A stretch of 64,000 nt of DNA, from contig JABUFA010000008.1 in NCBI GenBank assembly GCA_013314755.1, positions 1 through 64,000 of the forward strand, given 5' to 3'. The notes under the pieces are model-generated. The model ran no database searches. It saw nothing but the letters and a program-made list of their open reading frames with translations, and was not told where the DNA came from. This DNA comes from Chthonomonadia bacterium. Lineage in GTDB: Bacteria > Armatimonadota > HRBIN16. The translations under genes were made by a program, and so were the position numbers. Position 1 is the stretch's first letter. Every line of letters starts with the position of its first letter. Shown here in pieces: positions 35,339-41,905 of this stretch.

Positions 35339-35373
35339 CTGCCACGTGGTATAATACAAGAAGGTGATAAGTG

Positions 35374-36243
35374 ATGGCTTTAGAAACTCTCGAGGATATC
35401 ATTCGCGCCTTACAGGAGCATCCCGAGTGGCGAGAGCCTCTGCTGGAAGCACTCCTGCCTGAACGTTATAAGCGACTTCCTGAACGTACAGACCGTCTGG
35501 AAGAAGCGCTGATACGCCTCGCGGAACAGAGCACAGAAACCGATCGGCGTCTGCGTGAACTGGCTGAGGAGACAAACAAGCGATTTCAGGAGATGGCAGT
35601 GCGACAGGAGGCGACCGACCGTCGGCTGGAACAGCTTACCGAACGAGTGGATGCGCTCACCGCACGGGTGGATGACCTTACCGTCAGGTTGGAACAACTC
35701 ACCGCACGGGTGGATGACCTTACCGTCAGGTTGGAACAACTCACCGCACGGGTGGACGATATTGCCGCCCAGCTGAACAGGCTGATAGAACGTGTTGACA
35801 ACATGCAGAAGGACATTGGCGAACTGAAAGGATTTCATCTGGAGCACTATTATCGTAACAACGCTACCGCAATCCTGGGGCTTTTCTTCCGCAAGCTTCG
35901 CGTAGTGGACAAGGGGAGGCTGATTGACTCGCTGTATGAACAGCATCCTCTGAGCCGTGAGGAGTGGGAGCAGATTCTGGCGGTAGACCTGCTGGTCACC
36001 GGCCGCCATCGCGCTACCGACGAAGAGTATCTGATGGTGTGGGAGATTTCGTGGACTGTGGACGAAAGCGATGTGCTTCGCGCCCTTGAGCGGGCGGATC
36101 TTTTGCGCCGACGAGGGATGAGCACCCTGCCGGTAGTGGCGGGAAAAGGCGTTACCGGTAACGCTCGCTCTCTGGCAGAAGCACGCCAAGTGCTGGTCGT
36201 TCTGGACTCGTTTCCTGTGGATGGCACAGGGATAATGAGATAG
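35374..36243 (+). CDS. Coiled-coil protein with a degenerate PD-(D/E)XK-like domain
   Basis: A 289-residue protein. Residues 30-155 form a long coiled coil, including a 14-residue unit (LTARVDDLTVRLEQ) repeated exactly at the DNA level. Residues 160-289 resemble the DUF3782-type nuclease-like domain (LEHYYRNNATAILGLFFRK, AVDLLVTGRHRATDEEYLMV, WEISWTVDESDVLRALERA). The usual ExK of the nuclease motif reads E-I-S here, so catalysis is doubtful. A TATAAT at 35350-35355 suggests its own promoter. The function of this group is unknown. Confidence 0.65.
   Translation: MALETLEDIIRALQEHPEWREPLLEALLPERYKRLPERTDRLEEALIRLAEQSTETDRRLRELAEETNKRFQEMAVRQEATDRRLEQLTERVDALTARVDDLTVRLEQLTARVDDLTVRLEQLTARVDDIAAQLNRLIERVDNMQKDIGELKGFHLEHYYRNNATAILGLFFRKLRVVDKGRLIDSLYEQHPLSREEWEQILAVDLLVTGRHRATDEEYLMVWEISWTVDESDVLRALERADLLRRRGMSTLPVVAGKGVTGNARSLAEARQVLVVLDSFPVDGTGIMR
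35656..35756 (+). repeat. 42-base tandem repeat coding for coiled-coil heptads
   Basis: Two exact 42-base units (35656-35697 and 35698-35739) plus 17 bases of a third. Each encodes 14 residues, i.e. two heptads, so copy-number change keeps frame and coiled-coil register. Confidence 0.9.
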
Positions 36244-36245
36244 CC

Positions 36246-37292
36246 CTACTCTACCACAATCAACCCCGGCTCCGCCTCTAACACCTCACCAATGACCTGC
36301 GCACAGGGGGTCTGGTGTTTGTGCAGTGCCGTCAGCAGGGCATCCGCTCGCTCGGGTGCTACCGCAATCACCAGCCCTCCTGAAGTCTGCGGGTCCAGCA
36401 AGACATGCTGAATCGACAGGGGAACGCTGTCGCTTGTTTGCAGAAACTCTCCAACGTACTCGCGGTTCAGGCTTCCGCCTCGTGTGGTGTTACCCTGCAT
36501 TGCCAGGCGTTCGGCGTCGGGCAGAAACGGTATCCTCTGCCAGTTCAGGCGAATCGCCACCCCACTTACCCGCGCCATCTGGTGCAGATGCCCAATCAGC
36601 CCGAAGCCGGTTACGTCCGTTGCCGCGTGCACGCCTACCTCCTGCATTGCCTCAGCTGCTCCAGCGTTCAGCGTCGCCATCACCTGTATCGCCTCGTCCA
36701 GAACTTCGGGGGGACACTCGTCGAACTTCGCTGCGGTGGTGATGATGCCCACCCCCAGCGGCTTGGTCAACACCAGCAGGTCGCCGGGCACCGCTCCGGC
36801 GTTGGTAACCACCTTCTGCGGGTGCACCAAGCCCGTTACCGCCATGCCGTATTTGGGTTCGGGGTCGTCCACGCTGTGCCCGCCGACGATGACCACGCCT
36901 GCCTCCTGTGCCTTGTCGTAACCACCGCGCAGGATGTCTGCCAGCATCTCGGCGGGAGCGTTTTCAATGGGGAAGCAGACCAGATTCAACGCGGTCAGCG
37001 GTCTGCCCCCCATCGCGTACACGTCGCTGAAGCTGTTTGCGGCGGCGATGGCGCCGTACCAGTAGGGGTCATCCACCACCGGAGTGAAGAAATCCACCGT
37101 CTGCACGAGCGCGAGGTCCTCGCGGACGCGAAACACTCCTGCATCGTCGCGGGTGTCAATCCCTACCAGCAGGTCCGGGTGAGCGATATCCGGGAACTGA
37201 CGCAGAACCTGCGCCAGCTGGGTGGGTCCCAGTTTGCTCGCTCAACCCGCACAGCGCACCAGCTGGGTGAGCCTCAGGCGTTTGTCCTGCAA
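36246..37292 (-). CDS. selD: Selenide, water dikinase with in-frame UGA (selenocysteine)
   Basis: Reading TGA at codon 17 (37242-37244) as selenocysteine gives a 348-residue SelD, the usual length. It makes selenophosphate from selenide and ATP. The N-terminus reads RLTQLVRCAG-U-ASKLGP, where the UGA falls exactly on the catalytic Cys/Sec position of SelD. It is followed by LLVGIDTRDDAGVFRV, TVDFFTPVVDDPYWYG, GGHSVDDPEPKYG and ATDVTGFGLIGHL. The start is TTG at 37292 with GGGAGG upstream, one base after the purE stop. A model that ignores recoding would start at GTG 37136 and lose about 52 residues including the active site. A hairpin follows the UGA. Confidence 0.9.
37211..37241 (-). promoter_or_regulatory. 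Candidate bacterial SECIS hairpin in selD
   Basis: Directly after the UGA the mRNA can fold with GCGAGC pairing to GCU-GG-CGC (two-base bulge) and an inner UGGG/CCCA stem with a small loop. Position and size fit a bacterial SECIS bound by SelB. The loop has no clear GU motif, so pairing needs testing. Confidence 0.5.
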
Positions 37293-37293
37293 T

Positions 37294-37782
37294 TTATCCT
37301 CCCTGCAGTTTCCGGTTCTTCTCGCGCGACTGCTCGGCTATCTGCTCTTTAAACTGCACCAGCTTCGCGTGAAGTTCGGGGTTTGCTGTGGCCAGTATCT
37401 GCACCGCCAGAATGCCTGCGTTGCGCCCGCCGCCGATGGCTACCGTCGCCACGGGCACGCCGGGAGGCATCTGCACGATGGAGAGCAGGGAATCCAGCCC
37501 CTGCAGTTTGCTCTCAATGGGCACACCAATCACAGGCAGGGTGGTTACCCCGGCGACCACGCCGGGCAGGTGTGCGGCACCGCCTGCCCCTGCGATAATC
37601 ACCCGCAAGCCGCGTTCGTGCGCCGTGCGGGCATACTCTATGGTATCAAATGGTGTGCGATGCGCCGAGGAGACCTTCATCTCGTAGGGTACGCCGAATT
37701 GCTCCAGCACTTCCGCCGCCTGTTTCATCACCGGCAGGTCGGAATCACTGCCCATCAGAATCCCCACCAGCGGTTGCGACAT
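37294..37782 (-). CDS. purE: N5-carboxyaminoimidazole ribonucleotide mutase
   Basis: A 162-residue class I PurE of the purine pathway. It has [14 protein letters not shown] at the N-terminus, [15 protein letters not shown] with the catalytic His, and [16 protein letters not shown], then [18 protein letters not shown]. The length and the SAHR motif fit the bacterial mutase that partners PurK; purK is not in the window. The TAA stop is followed after one base by the selD start, so purE and selD share a message. A GGAGGT site precedes the ATG. Confidence 0.96.
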
Positions 37783-39394: not shown

Positions 39395-40454
39395 CACTTT
39401 CACCTTCTACCAGAGGCAGTTCCACCCAGAACACGCTTCCTTCGCCCGCTTGTGATATCGCACCATATCGCCCGTTCAGGGCTGTAACCGCTTTTTTCAT
39501 GATGCTCAAACCCAGTCCCACTCCCGGATACTCTTCCACCCCATGCAGACGAACGAAGGGGGCAAAAACCCGTTCCACATCTTCCTGTGCCATGCCGATA
39601 CCGTTGTCCTGCACCTCGATGCGACAGAACTCCCCTCGGGGATAAGCGCGTATATCGACGCGAACAGCCCGGTTCTTATCGCGGAACTTCAGCGCGTTGG
39701 AAACCAAGTTCTTCACCACCAGCTTGAGCAGTAGCGGGTCAGCCTCCACGACCTCACACTGCAGATCACATTCTATTTGCGCGTTTGCTGTAGCGATTTC
39801 CTGTGCCAGTTCTCTCAGAGAGTCGTCAATCAGAGGTTTCAGCCACACGCTATAAATCTCCACCTCACGCCCCAGTCGCGCGAAGGTCAGCAGGGACCCA
39901 AGCACGTTTTTCATCTCCTGCGCCGAATCGGCGATACGCTTCAGATAGTCGGCGGTCTCGCTATCCGGCGGCACTCCGGCGTCCTCGATAACCGCCTGCG
40001 CGAAGCCCTCCATCGCCCGCAGAGGTGCGCGCAGTTCGTGTGTGACGGCGTGCACGAACGCCTCCATGTCCTGATTGCGCTGGTACAGCTCCAGCGAGAG
40101 TCGCCTTGCCCGAAGCATTACTTCCACCCGTGCCTGAAGCTCCACCCGCTGAATCGGCGTGAGGATGACCTCATCAATGGATTTCCACAGATTGCGCGTT
40201 GCCAGCCCCACGTTTTGCCTCGAGGTGATAAGCAGAACGGGTAAGAAGGTCGGAAGCGCATCCTGTTTCGCCTGCAGGATGGCATCCATATAGCGCTCCA
40301 GCATGACCCCGTCCACGACGATAAGGTCACACGCGCGCAGGGAGCCGCGGTAACGCTCCTCATCCAGCGCGACGACCGCATAGCGGTCTGCCAGAGCCTC
40401 CTCCAGCAGGCGCAGGTTTGTCCTGTTTGAGAGTATCACGAGCAGGCGGTTCAT
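39372..40454 (-). CDS. Histidine kinase with N-terminal receiver-like domain
   Basis: A 360-residue cytoplasmic kinase. Residues 1-115 look like a receiver-type fold (NRLLVILSNRTNLRLLEEAL; ACDLIVVDGVMLERYMDAIL; LPVLLITSRQ), but the surrounding acidic residues are reduced, so it may be a pseudo-receiver. The phosphorylated His is in FVHAVTHELRAPLRAMEGFA. The ATPase domain has NLVSNALKFRDKN, EVQDNGIGMAQEDVERVF and GVGLGLSIMKKAV. It begins as ATGA over the KaiC-like stop. It could receive its signal from the KaiC-like ATPase, as SasA does from KaiC; that link is inferred. Confidence 0.85.
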   Translation of the reverse strand: MNRLLVILSNRTNLRLLEEALADRYAVVALDEERYRGSLRACDLIVVDGVMLERYMDAILQAKQDALPTFLPVLLITSRQNVGLATRNLWKSIDEVILTPIQRVELQARVEVMLRARRLSLELYQRNQDMEAFVHAVTHELRAPLRAMEGFAQAVIEDAGVPPDSETADYLKRIADSAQEMKNVLGSLLTFARLGREVEIYSVWLKPLIDDSLRELAQEIATANAQIECDLQCEVVEADPLLLKLVVKNLVSNALKFRDKNRAVRVDIRAYPRGEFCRIEVQDNGIGMAQEDVERVFAPFVRLHGVEEYPGVGLGLSIMKKAVTALNGRYGAISQAGEGSVFWVELPLVEGESDESAAGR

Positions 40455-41905
40455 TGCTCTTCTTCCCACACCGGAGTGTCCGCCACGATGTGACGCAGGG
40501 TGGAAATGGGATGCCCTATCCAGATACCCTGTGAGGTGATTCGGAACTCGCGGAGGGTGTGGTCGAAGTCGCCGAGCCGCTTCTTTAGCACCCCAATCAC
40601 CCGCGTGAGTTCCGCCCGCGTGGGCGTGTATTTTTCGGCGTAGCGCAGGAACAACACCGTATCCGCCAGATAGCTCAGCCCCACCTCGCTGATCAGCAGG
40701 GGACCAGACACGGTGTGCGTCTCGTTGATAAGAAGCGTCACCACCCCGCGACTCTGCAGCCATTTGCACAGCGCATGTAACTGCCCCACCAGGTCCTCGC
40801 CGTGCAGTGCCAGCCGATAACCTGCCACACTGTCTATCATCACGATGCGCGTCCCATGTTTCTCCACCTCTTCGCGCACCATGTAGGCGAACTCTATGGC
40901 AGAGTGCTGAAGCGGTTCTACCTTTACCAGCGAGATCTTACCCTGCTCCGTCATCTCCGCCGCGGGGATACCCACCGAGGCACACCGGTTCAGAATAAGC
41001 GGCACTTCTTCCTCGAAGGTGTACACCACCGAGCGTTCGCCCCGTGTGGCTGCTTCCTTCATGAACTGCATTCCCAGCGTGGTTTTGCCCACCCCGCTTG
41101 CGCCCGTTATCAGCACAATGGTGCCGCGCTCCAGCCCGCCATGCAACAGCTGGTCCAGCGCAGGCACACCGGACGAAATCTGCTCCTGAACGGCGGTGAA
41201 ACGTTCTGGCTCCGGGAGCAGTTGCGGATACACATGCACACCCTGGCTGTTGATTCGCAAGGCGTGCACTCCGGTCCGAAACCCGCTACCCCGCATCTTG
41301 GTCACGCTCACACGTCGATGTCCGCCGTTCATCTCCAGATGGATAATGCCGTCGCTCAGTGACTGGAGGTCGTCATCCGGGGCAAGAGCACTGCTCTCAG
41401 AAGTGAACATCACCGTTGCGCCCTGCTCGGTGAGGAAACGCAGAAACGACAGCACCTGCTTGCGATATTCAAACTCGTTGGGGGTGAGATACCGGAAGTG
41501 AGTCATCGAGTCCACAAACACGCGCTGAGGCTGTAAACGGGACACAGTTTCCACCAGCAGCTGAGTAAGCGGGGAACGCTCTACCTCCGCGGGTGCAAAC
41601 AGGTCGTATGCCTGCGCCTGAGCAAAAAACTCCGAAGATGGGCTGAGGTCTAAGAAGTGTACCCAGCGCAGGTTCAGCCCCACGCTGGCGGCGTTCTGGC
41701 GGATTTTGCGCTCAGACTCATCCAGCGCCACGAACAGGCTGTTTTCCCGCCGCGTGCCTGCCGCCAGGAAGTGTAACCCAATCAGCGTCTTGCCTGTGCC
41801 CGGCGCACCCCGCAGAAGATACGCCCTCTGGGGGATGAGACCGCCCCCCAGTATCTCATCCAGCCCCGAAATACCTGTGGATATTCGCCGGGGTGCTTTG
41901 TGCAT
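40451..41905 (-). CDS. KaiC-like tandem RecA-fold ATPase
   Basis: A 484-residue protein with two KaiC-type domains. Walker A motifs are GAPGTGKT (residues 33-40) and GASGVGKT in the second half. The paired catalytic carboxylates appear as ALDESERK and TFEEEVPL, and Walker B-like strands as RVFVDSMTHF and RIVMIDSVAGYR. This is the circadian-clock KaiC layout, also found in many non-clock signal ATPases of archaea and bacteria. KaiA and KaiB are not encoded nearby, and I do not see the clear S/T autophosphorylation pair of clock KaiC. It is the first gene of a three-gene operon with two histidine kinases. Confidence 0.88.
   Translation of the reverse strand: MHKAPRRISTGISGLDEILGGGLIPQRAYLLRGAPGTGKTLIGLHFLAAGTRRENSLFVALDESERKIRQNAASVGLNLRWVHFLDLSPSSEFFAQAQAYDLFAPAEVERSPLTQLLVETVSRLQPQRVFVDSMTHFRYLTPNEFEYRKQVLSFLRFLTEQGATVMFTSESSALAPDDDLQSLSDGIIHLEMNGGHRRVSVTKMRGSGFRTGVHALRINSQGVHVYPQLLPEPERFTAVQEQISSGVPALDQLLHGGLERGTIVLITGASGVGKTTLGMQFMKEAATRGERSVVYTFEEEVPLILNRCASVGIPAAEMTEQGKISLVKVEPLQHSAIEFAYMVREEVEKHGTRIVMIDSVAGYRLALHGEDLVGQLHALCKWLQSRGVVTLLINETHTVSGPLLISEVGLSYLADTVLFLRYAEKYTPTRAELTRVIGVLKKRLGDFDHTLREFRITSQGIWIGHPISTLRHIVADTPVWEEEQ

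Follow-up and report, generated by a model that had tools for sequence, protein, structure and literature searches.

An in-frame UGA at the catalytic codon of selD and the accompanying selenocysteine machinery in an Armatimonadota genome

The selD locus and its reading frame

Within the window (the whole stretch of DNA analysed, 64,000 nucleotides), selD occupies 36246..37292 on the minus strand and comprises 348 codons, with a TTG start, a TAG stop (36248-36246) and an in-frame TGA at codon 17 (37244-37242), which we read as selenocysteine (Sec). Translated with TGA as U, the frame is open from this codon to the TAG. The TTG (37292-37290) lies one base past the TAA stop (37296-37294) of the upstream neighbour purE (37294..37782, minus strand; TIGR01162, 222.7 bits), and a GGAGG ribosome binding site at the end of purE (37298..37302, minus strand) precedes it by five bases. 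In several congeners selD is likewise directly adjoined by purE, and the two genes are probably co-transcribed. Other genes were noted in the window. One at 35371-36243 (plus strand) is convergent with selD, with two bases between them, and encodes repeated LTARVDDLTVRLEQ-type coiled-coil units. Another at 40451-41905 (minus strand) encodes a protein that has two KaiC/RecA-like ATP-binding halves in tandem, as judged by eye from two GxxxxGKT motifs, and the genes adjoining it resemble a sensor kinase and a response regulator.

Reading UGA as a stop leaves a GTG-started ORF of 296 amino acids (36246..37136, minus strand), a truncated SelD without the catalytic residue. The TIGR00476 (selD) model matches the read-through protein across the TGA over residues 7-315 with 389.6 bits (cut-off 125), bearing out the proposal of the initial annotation that the SelD frame reaches back over the TGA to a TTG start near purE; for the GTG-started ORF the score drops to 335.7 bits. 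A second model, NF002098, matches the read-through SelD with 353.8 bits (cut-off 299). The TTG start is further supported because in congener selD genes the position aligned with the first residue of the source protein, or the one beside it, is occupied by a start codon, in most cases ATG.

Comparison with solved structures using phmmer aligns codon 17 with Cys17 of the E. coli-type SelD 3u0o (E 1.9e-75, alignment 3-347) and with the corresponding Cys of the chain ranked second, 2yye (E 2.3e-67), so that residue 17 matches the catalytic Cys of both, as expected from the earlier claim that this is the Cys/Sec site. The surrounding motif, G-U17-A-S-K20, fits G-[C/U]-x-x-K. TGA stands at codon 17 in each of the ten genomes analysed for the genus, among which the source SelD is 80-86% identical to the others, and in 26 Armatimonadota genomes where the codon was inspected base by base; it is also found at the same codon in SelD genes from many other phyla. 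Direct reading of codon 17 across 111 SelD loci gave TGA in 84, TGC or TGT in 27 and no other codon. The recurrence in ten congeners and many other phyla argues that the TGA is not there by chance.

A covarying hairpin downstream of the UGA

A bacterial SECIS hairpin, CUGGCGCAG-GUU-CUGCGUCAG, lies past the UGA at 37195..37219 (minus strand). Its 8-bp core stem pairs 37216-37209 with 37205-37198 and extends in the fold to 11 bp over 37219-37195; the apical loop GUU (37208-37206, inside GCAGGUUCUGC) is 33 nt past the UGA. The hairpin suggested by the initial annotation is thus present, SECIS-like and covarying, but the segment proposed for folding, 37205-37244, omits the 3′ arm, as the core ends at 37198. 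Published constraints for bSECIS elements are a loop of 3-9 nt, an upper stem of 4-16 bp, a G within the first two nucleotides of the loop, a spacing of 16-37 nt and an MFE <= −7.5 (PMC13188914). The selD hairpin lies within all of these limits (a 3-nt loop beginning with G, a stem of 8-11 bp, a 33-nt spacing and −15.7 kcal/mol). Its fold energy is unexceptional, being reached by 12% of synonymous recodings of the same peptide; hence the case for a SECIS rests on covariation and on the contrast between Sec- and Cys-type genes.

Covariation was measured on 42 distinct Sec-type hairpins from loci titled Armatimonadetes, Gemmatimonadetes, Anaeromyxobacter and other Myxococcaceae, Chloroflexi and others. 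In this set 94.3% of stem cells are paired as opposed to 27-52% with the partner slid, a somewhat favourable figure since the 42 were picked from 60 distinct hairpins after removal of near-duplicates and several of the poorest. Double-change cells number 27, compared with 4.2 in shuffles, and compensatory double changes occur at six of the eight stem pairs. The covariation score is 0.367 versus 0.146 when shuffled and at most 0.10 with the partner slid.

Across all 79 distinct Sec-type sequences, 91.9% of the cells in the 8-bp stem are paired, compared with 45.4% in Cys-type genes; within Armatimonadota alone the values are 90.7% and 50.0% (four Cys genes). Part of this contrast is owed to differing lineages and G+C content. 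The hairpin is missing from most Cys-type selD genes, and the peptide encoded by the region is predominantly L-A-Q-V-L-R in Sec-type genes whereas E, K and Q are common there in Cys-type genes. Some TGA-bearing relatives (e.g. L032, L038 and L039) are without a standard GGU hairpin. A covariance model, R1, returned the selD hairpin as its best match in the source genome and in each of the nine congeners. Rfam at the gathering threshold gave no match within the window, and the pattern GCAGGTNNTGC was discarded since its 312 matches genome-wide are far too frequent.

These data bear on whether the UGA might be a true stop, with translation of a shorter SelD beginning at the internal GTG (37136). 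Automatic gene finders would call that 296-residue ORF, yet SelD sequence in the 52 residues upstream of the GTG is conserved throughout the congeners, the short form has neither the catalytic residue nor K20, and the hairpin past the UGA covaries, making a true stop highly improbable. Still less credible is a sequencing error, in which the codon is really TGC or TGT, or a dead gene. Such an error is conceivable in a draft genome assembly of 88 contigs, but ten genomes of the genus and many other phyla share the TGA, beyond which their frames stay intact for about 330 codons, and the usual lack of the hairpin in Cys-type genes argues against a misread Cys codon. As the TGA stands in independent genomes, this reading is refuted; a TGC or TGT in place of the TGA was the very outcome that the initial annotation had named as fatal to its proposal.

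Selenocysteine machinery and its possible clients

The source genome contains selA (contig C66:207714-209072; 582 bits, cut-off 268) and selB (contig C66:211056-212933; 434 bits, cut-off 242), which lie about 5 kb apart or less, together with a tRNA-Sec gene, selC, with anticodon UCA (contig C40:90956-91051; 72.9 bits, gathering 47). The initial annotation had anticipated selA, selB and selC elsewhere in the genome and had staked its reading on selB and tRNA-Sec in particular; all are present above curated cut-offs. A genome-wide reassignment of UGA to a different amino acid, of the kind seen in codes where it means Trp or Gly, would also account for read-through in selD, but is scarcely credible given this machinery and the termination of four of 14 neighbouring genes in the window with TGA, which implies that the code is not globally reassigned.

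The source selD has the frame, the residue alignment and the covarying hairpin, and a complete selA/selB/selC/selD set is present in one genome. We conclude that the selD product is almost certainly a selenophosphate synthetase with selenocysteine as its catalytic residue 17. How the gene would be expressed and what its product would do we infer from what is established for SelA, SelB and SelD of bacteria. Translation would initiate at the TTG at 37292, and the hairpin, with its loop 33 nt past the UGA, would recruit SelB with Sec-tRNA-Sec so that Sec is inserted at codon 17 in place of termination. SelD would then convert selenide and ATP to selenophosphate and supply it to SelA, which would make Sec on tRNA-Sec; the product of selD would thus be needed for its own synthesis in a self-feeding loop.

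Among 61 Armatimonadota genomes, 38 have a SelD match (E <= 1e-28), with one TGA in 31 of these and none in seven. selA is found above cut-off in 35 of the 38 SelD genomes and in 0 of the remaining 23. The three SelD genomes without selA above cut-off are G009, G028 (in which SelD is fragmentary) and G059 (in which selA is fragmentary). G009 is a congener, 98% complete, with a TGA-containing selD and no selA match, probably reflecting an assembly gap. The seven genomes with a stop-free selD (G011, G016, G024, G027, G030, G038 and G040) retain selA and presumably make other selenoproteins.

A Sec-formate dehydrogenase was not found in the source genome, where the three clear molybdopterin-oxidoreductase-type ORFs matched by PF00384 all lack a TGA, and TIGR03167 gave no match at E <= 0.001 for the selenouridine synthase MnmH/YbbB. 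SelD may therefore rank among the main users of the Sec machinery. R1 yielded no second convincing SECIS in the source genome and nine congeners, and its next-best matches had no in-frame TGA within a recognisable gene; as R1 is tuned to selD, SECIS elements of other types may nevertheless occur.

A candidate second selenoprotein is encoded on contig C35 at about 73,091-73,948 (equivalent to L225:1378-2235; search match 73214-73450). The predicted protein has a signal-peptide-like N-terminus, a thioredoxin fold and C-terminal TPR repeats, and its frame is open for 60 codons before the TGA and 231 after it. The TGA provides the first residue of a CxxC-type motif (U-G-W-C, within DW-U-GWCKRL) and falls on the active-site Cys in an alignment with 2kuc; the read-through protein scores 61.8 bits against PF13899 (cut-off 27). 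Its candidate SECIS is atypical. Judged from sequence, this thioredoxin-fold/TPR protein is likely to be a second selenoprotein. Thioredoxin-type selenoproteins with a UxxC motif are already known.

The redox-protein search used a single query in which five E. coli proteins were joined end to end, and its reach is limited to relatives of Trx, Bcp, AhpC, ErpA and MsrA. An ErpA/HesB match with a TGA (contig C10) was rejected because the TGA precedes the real start, and a thioredoxin match with an in-frame TAA was seen on contig C74. We tentatively suggest that the genus may keep the Sec machinery without Sec-formate dehydrogenase or selenouridine synthesis, its clients being SelD and the exported-looking, little-known U-G-W-C protein on C35, the latter using an atypical SECIS.

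Relation to known selenophosphate synthetases

Our literature search found no paper describing Armatimonadota selenoproteins, and the present data document, for a phylum that has received little study, a Sec-decoding trait that is complete and has a well-covarying SECIS. The corrected gene model restores 52 residues, the catalytic one included, that are lost under a plain stop-codon reading. Like the organisms that have Sec-SelD and no FdhA (PMC1794560), the source genome keeps Sec-SelD without a detected Sec-formate dehydrogenase; those organisms mostly also make selenouridine (PMC1794560), whereas no MnmH/YbbB was found here. With both usual reasons for selenium retention (Sec-FdhA and selenouridine) apparently missing, the maintenance of Sec coding becomes testable in this genus.

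The source SelD aligns over its full length with the E. coli-type SelD (3u0o), position 17 being matched, and has Sec17 and Ser19 where the latter has Cys17 and Cys19. A 2016 survey listed 394 sequences of Sec-containing SelD from 383 organisms, which made it the second most widespread bacterial selenoprotein (PMC5029168). The source SelD belongs to this long-known family, and its kind is itself not new: it shares with other Sec-containing bacterial SelD proteins the Sec/Cys position in the N-terminal loop, the following Lys, the UGA together with an in-frame bSECIS and the genomic selA, selB and selC, and nothing essential differs.
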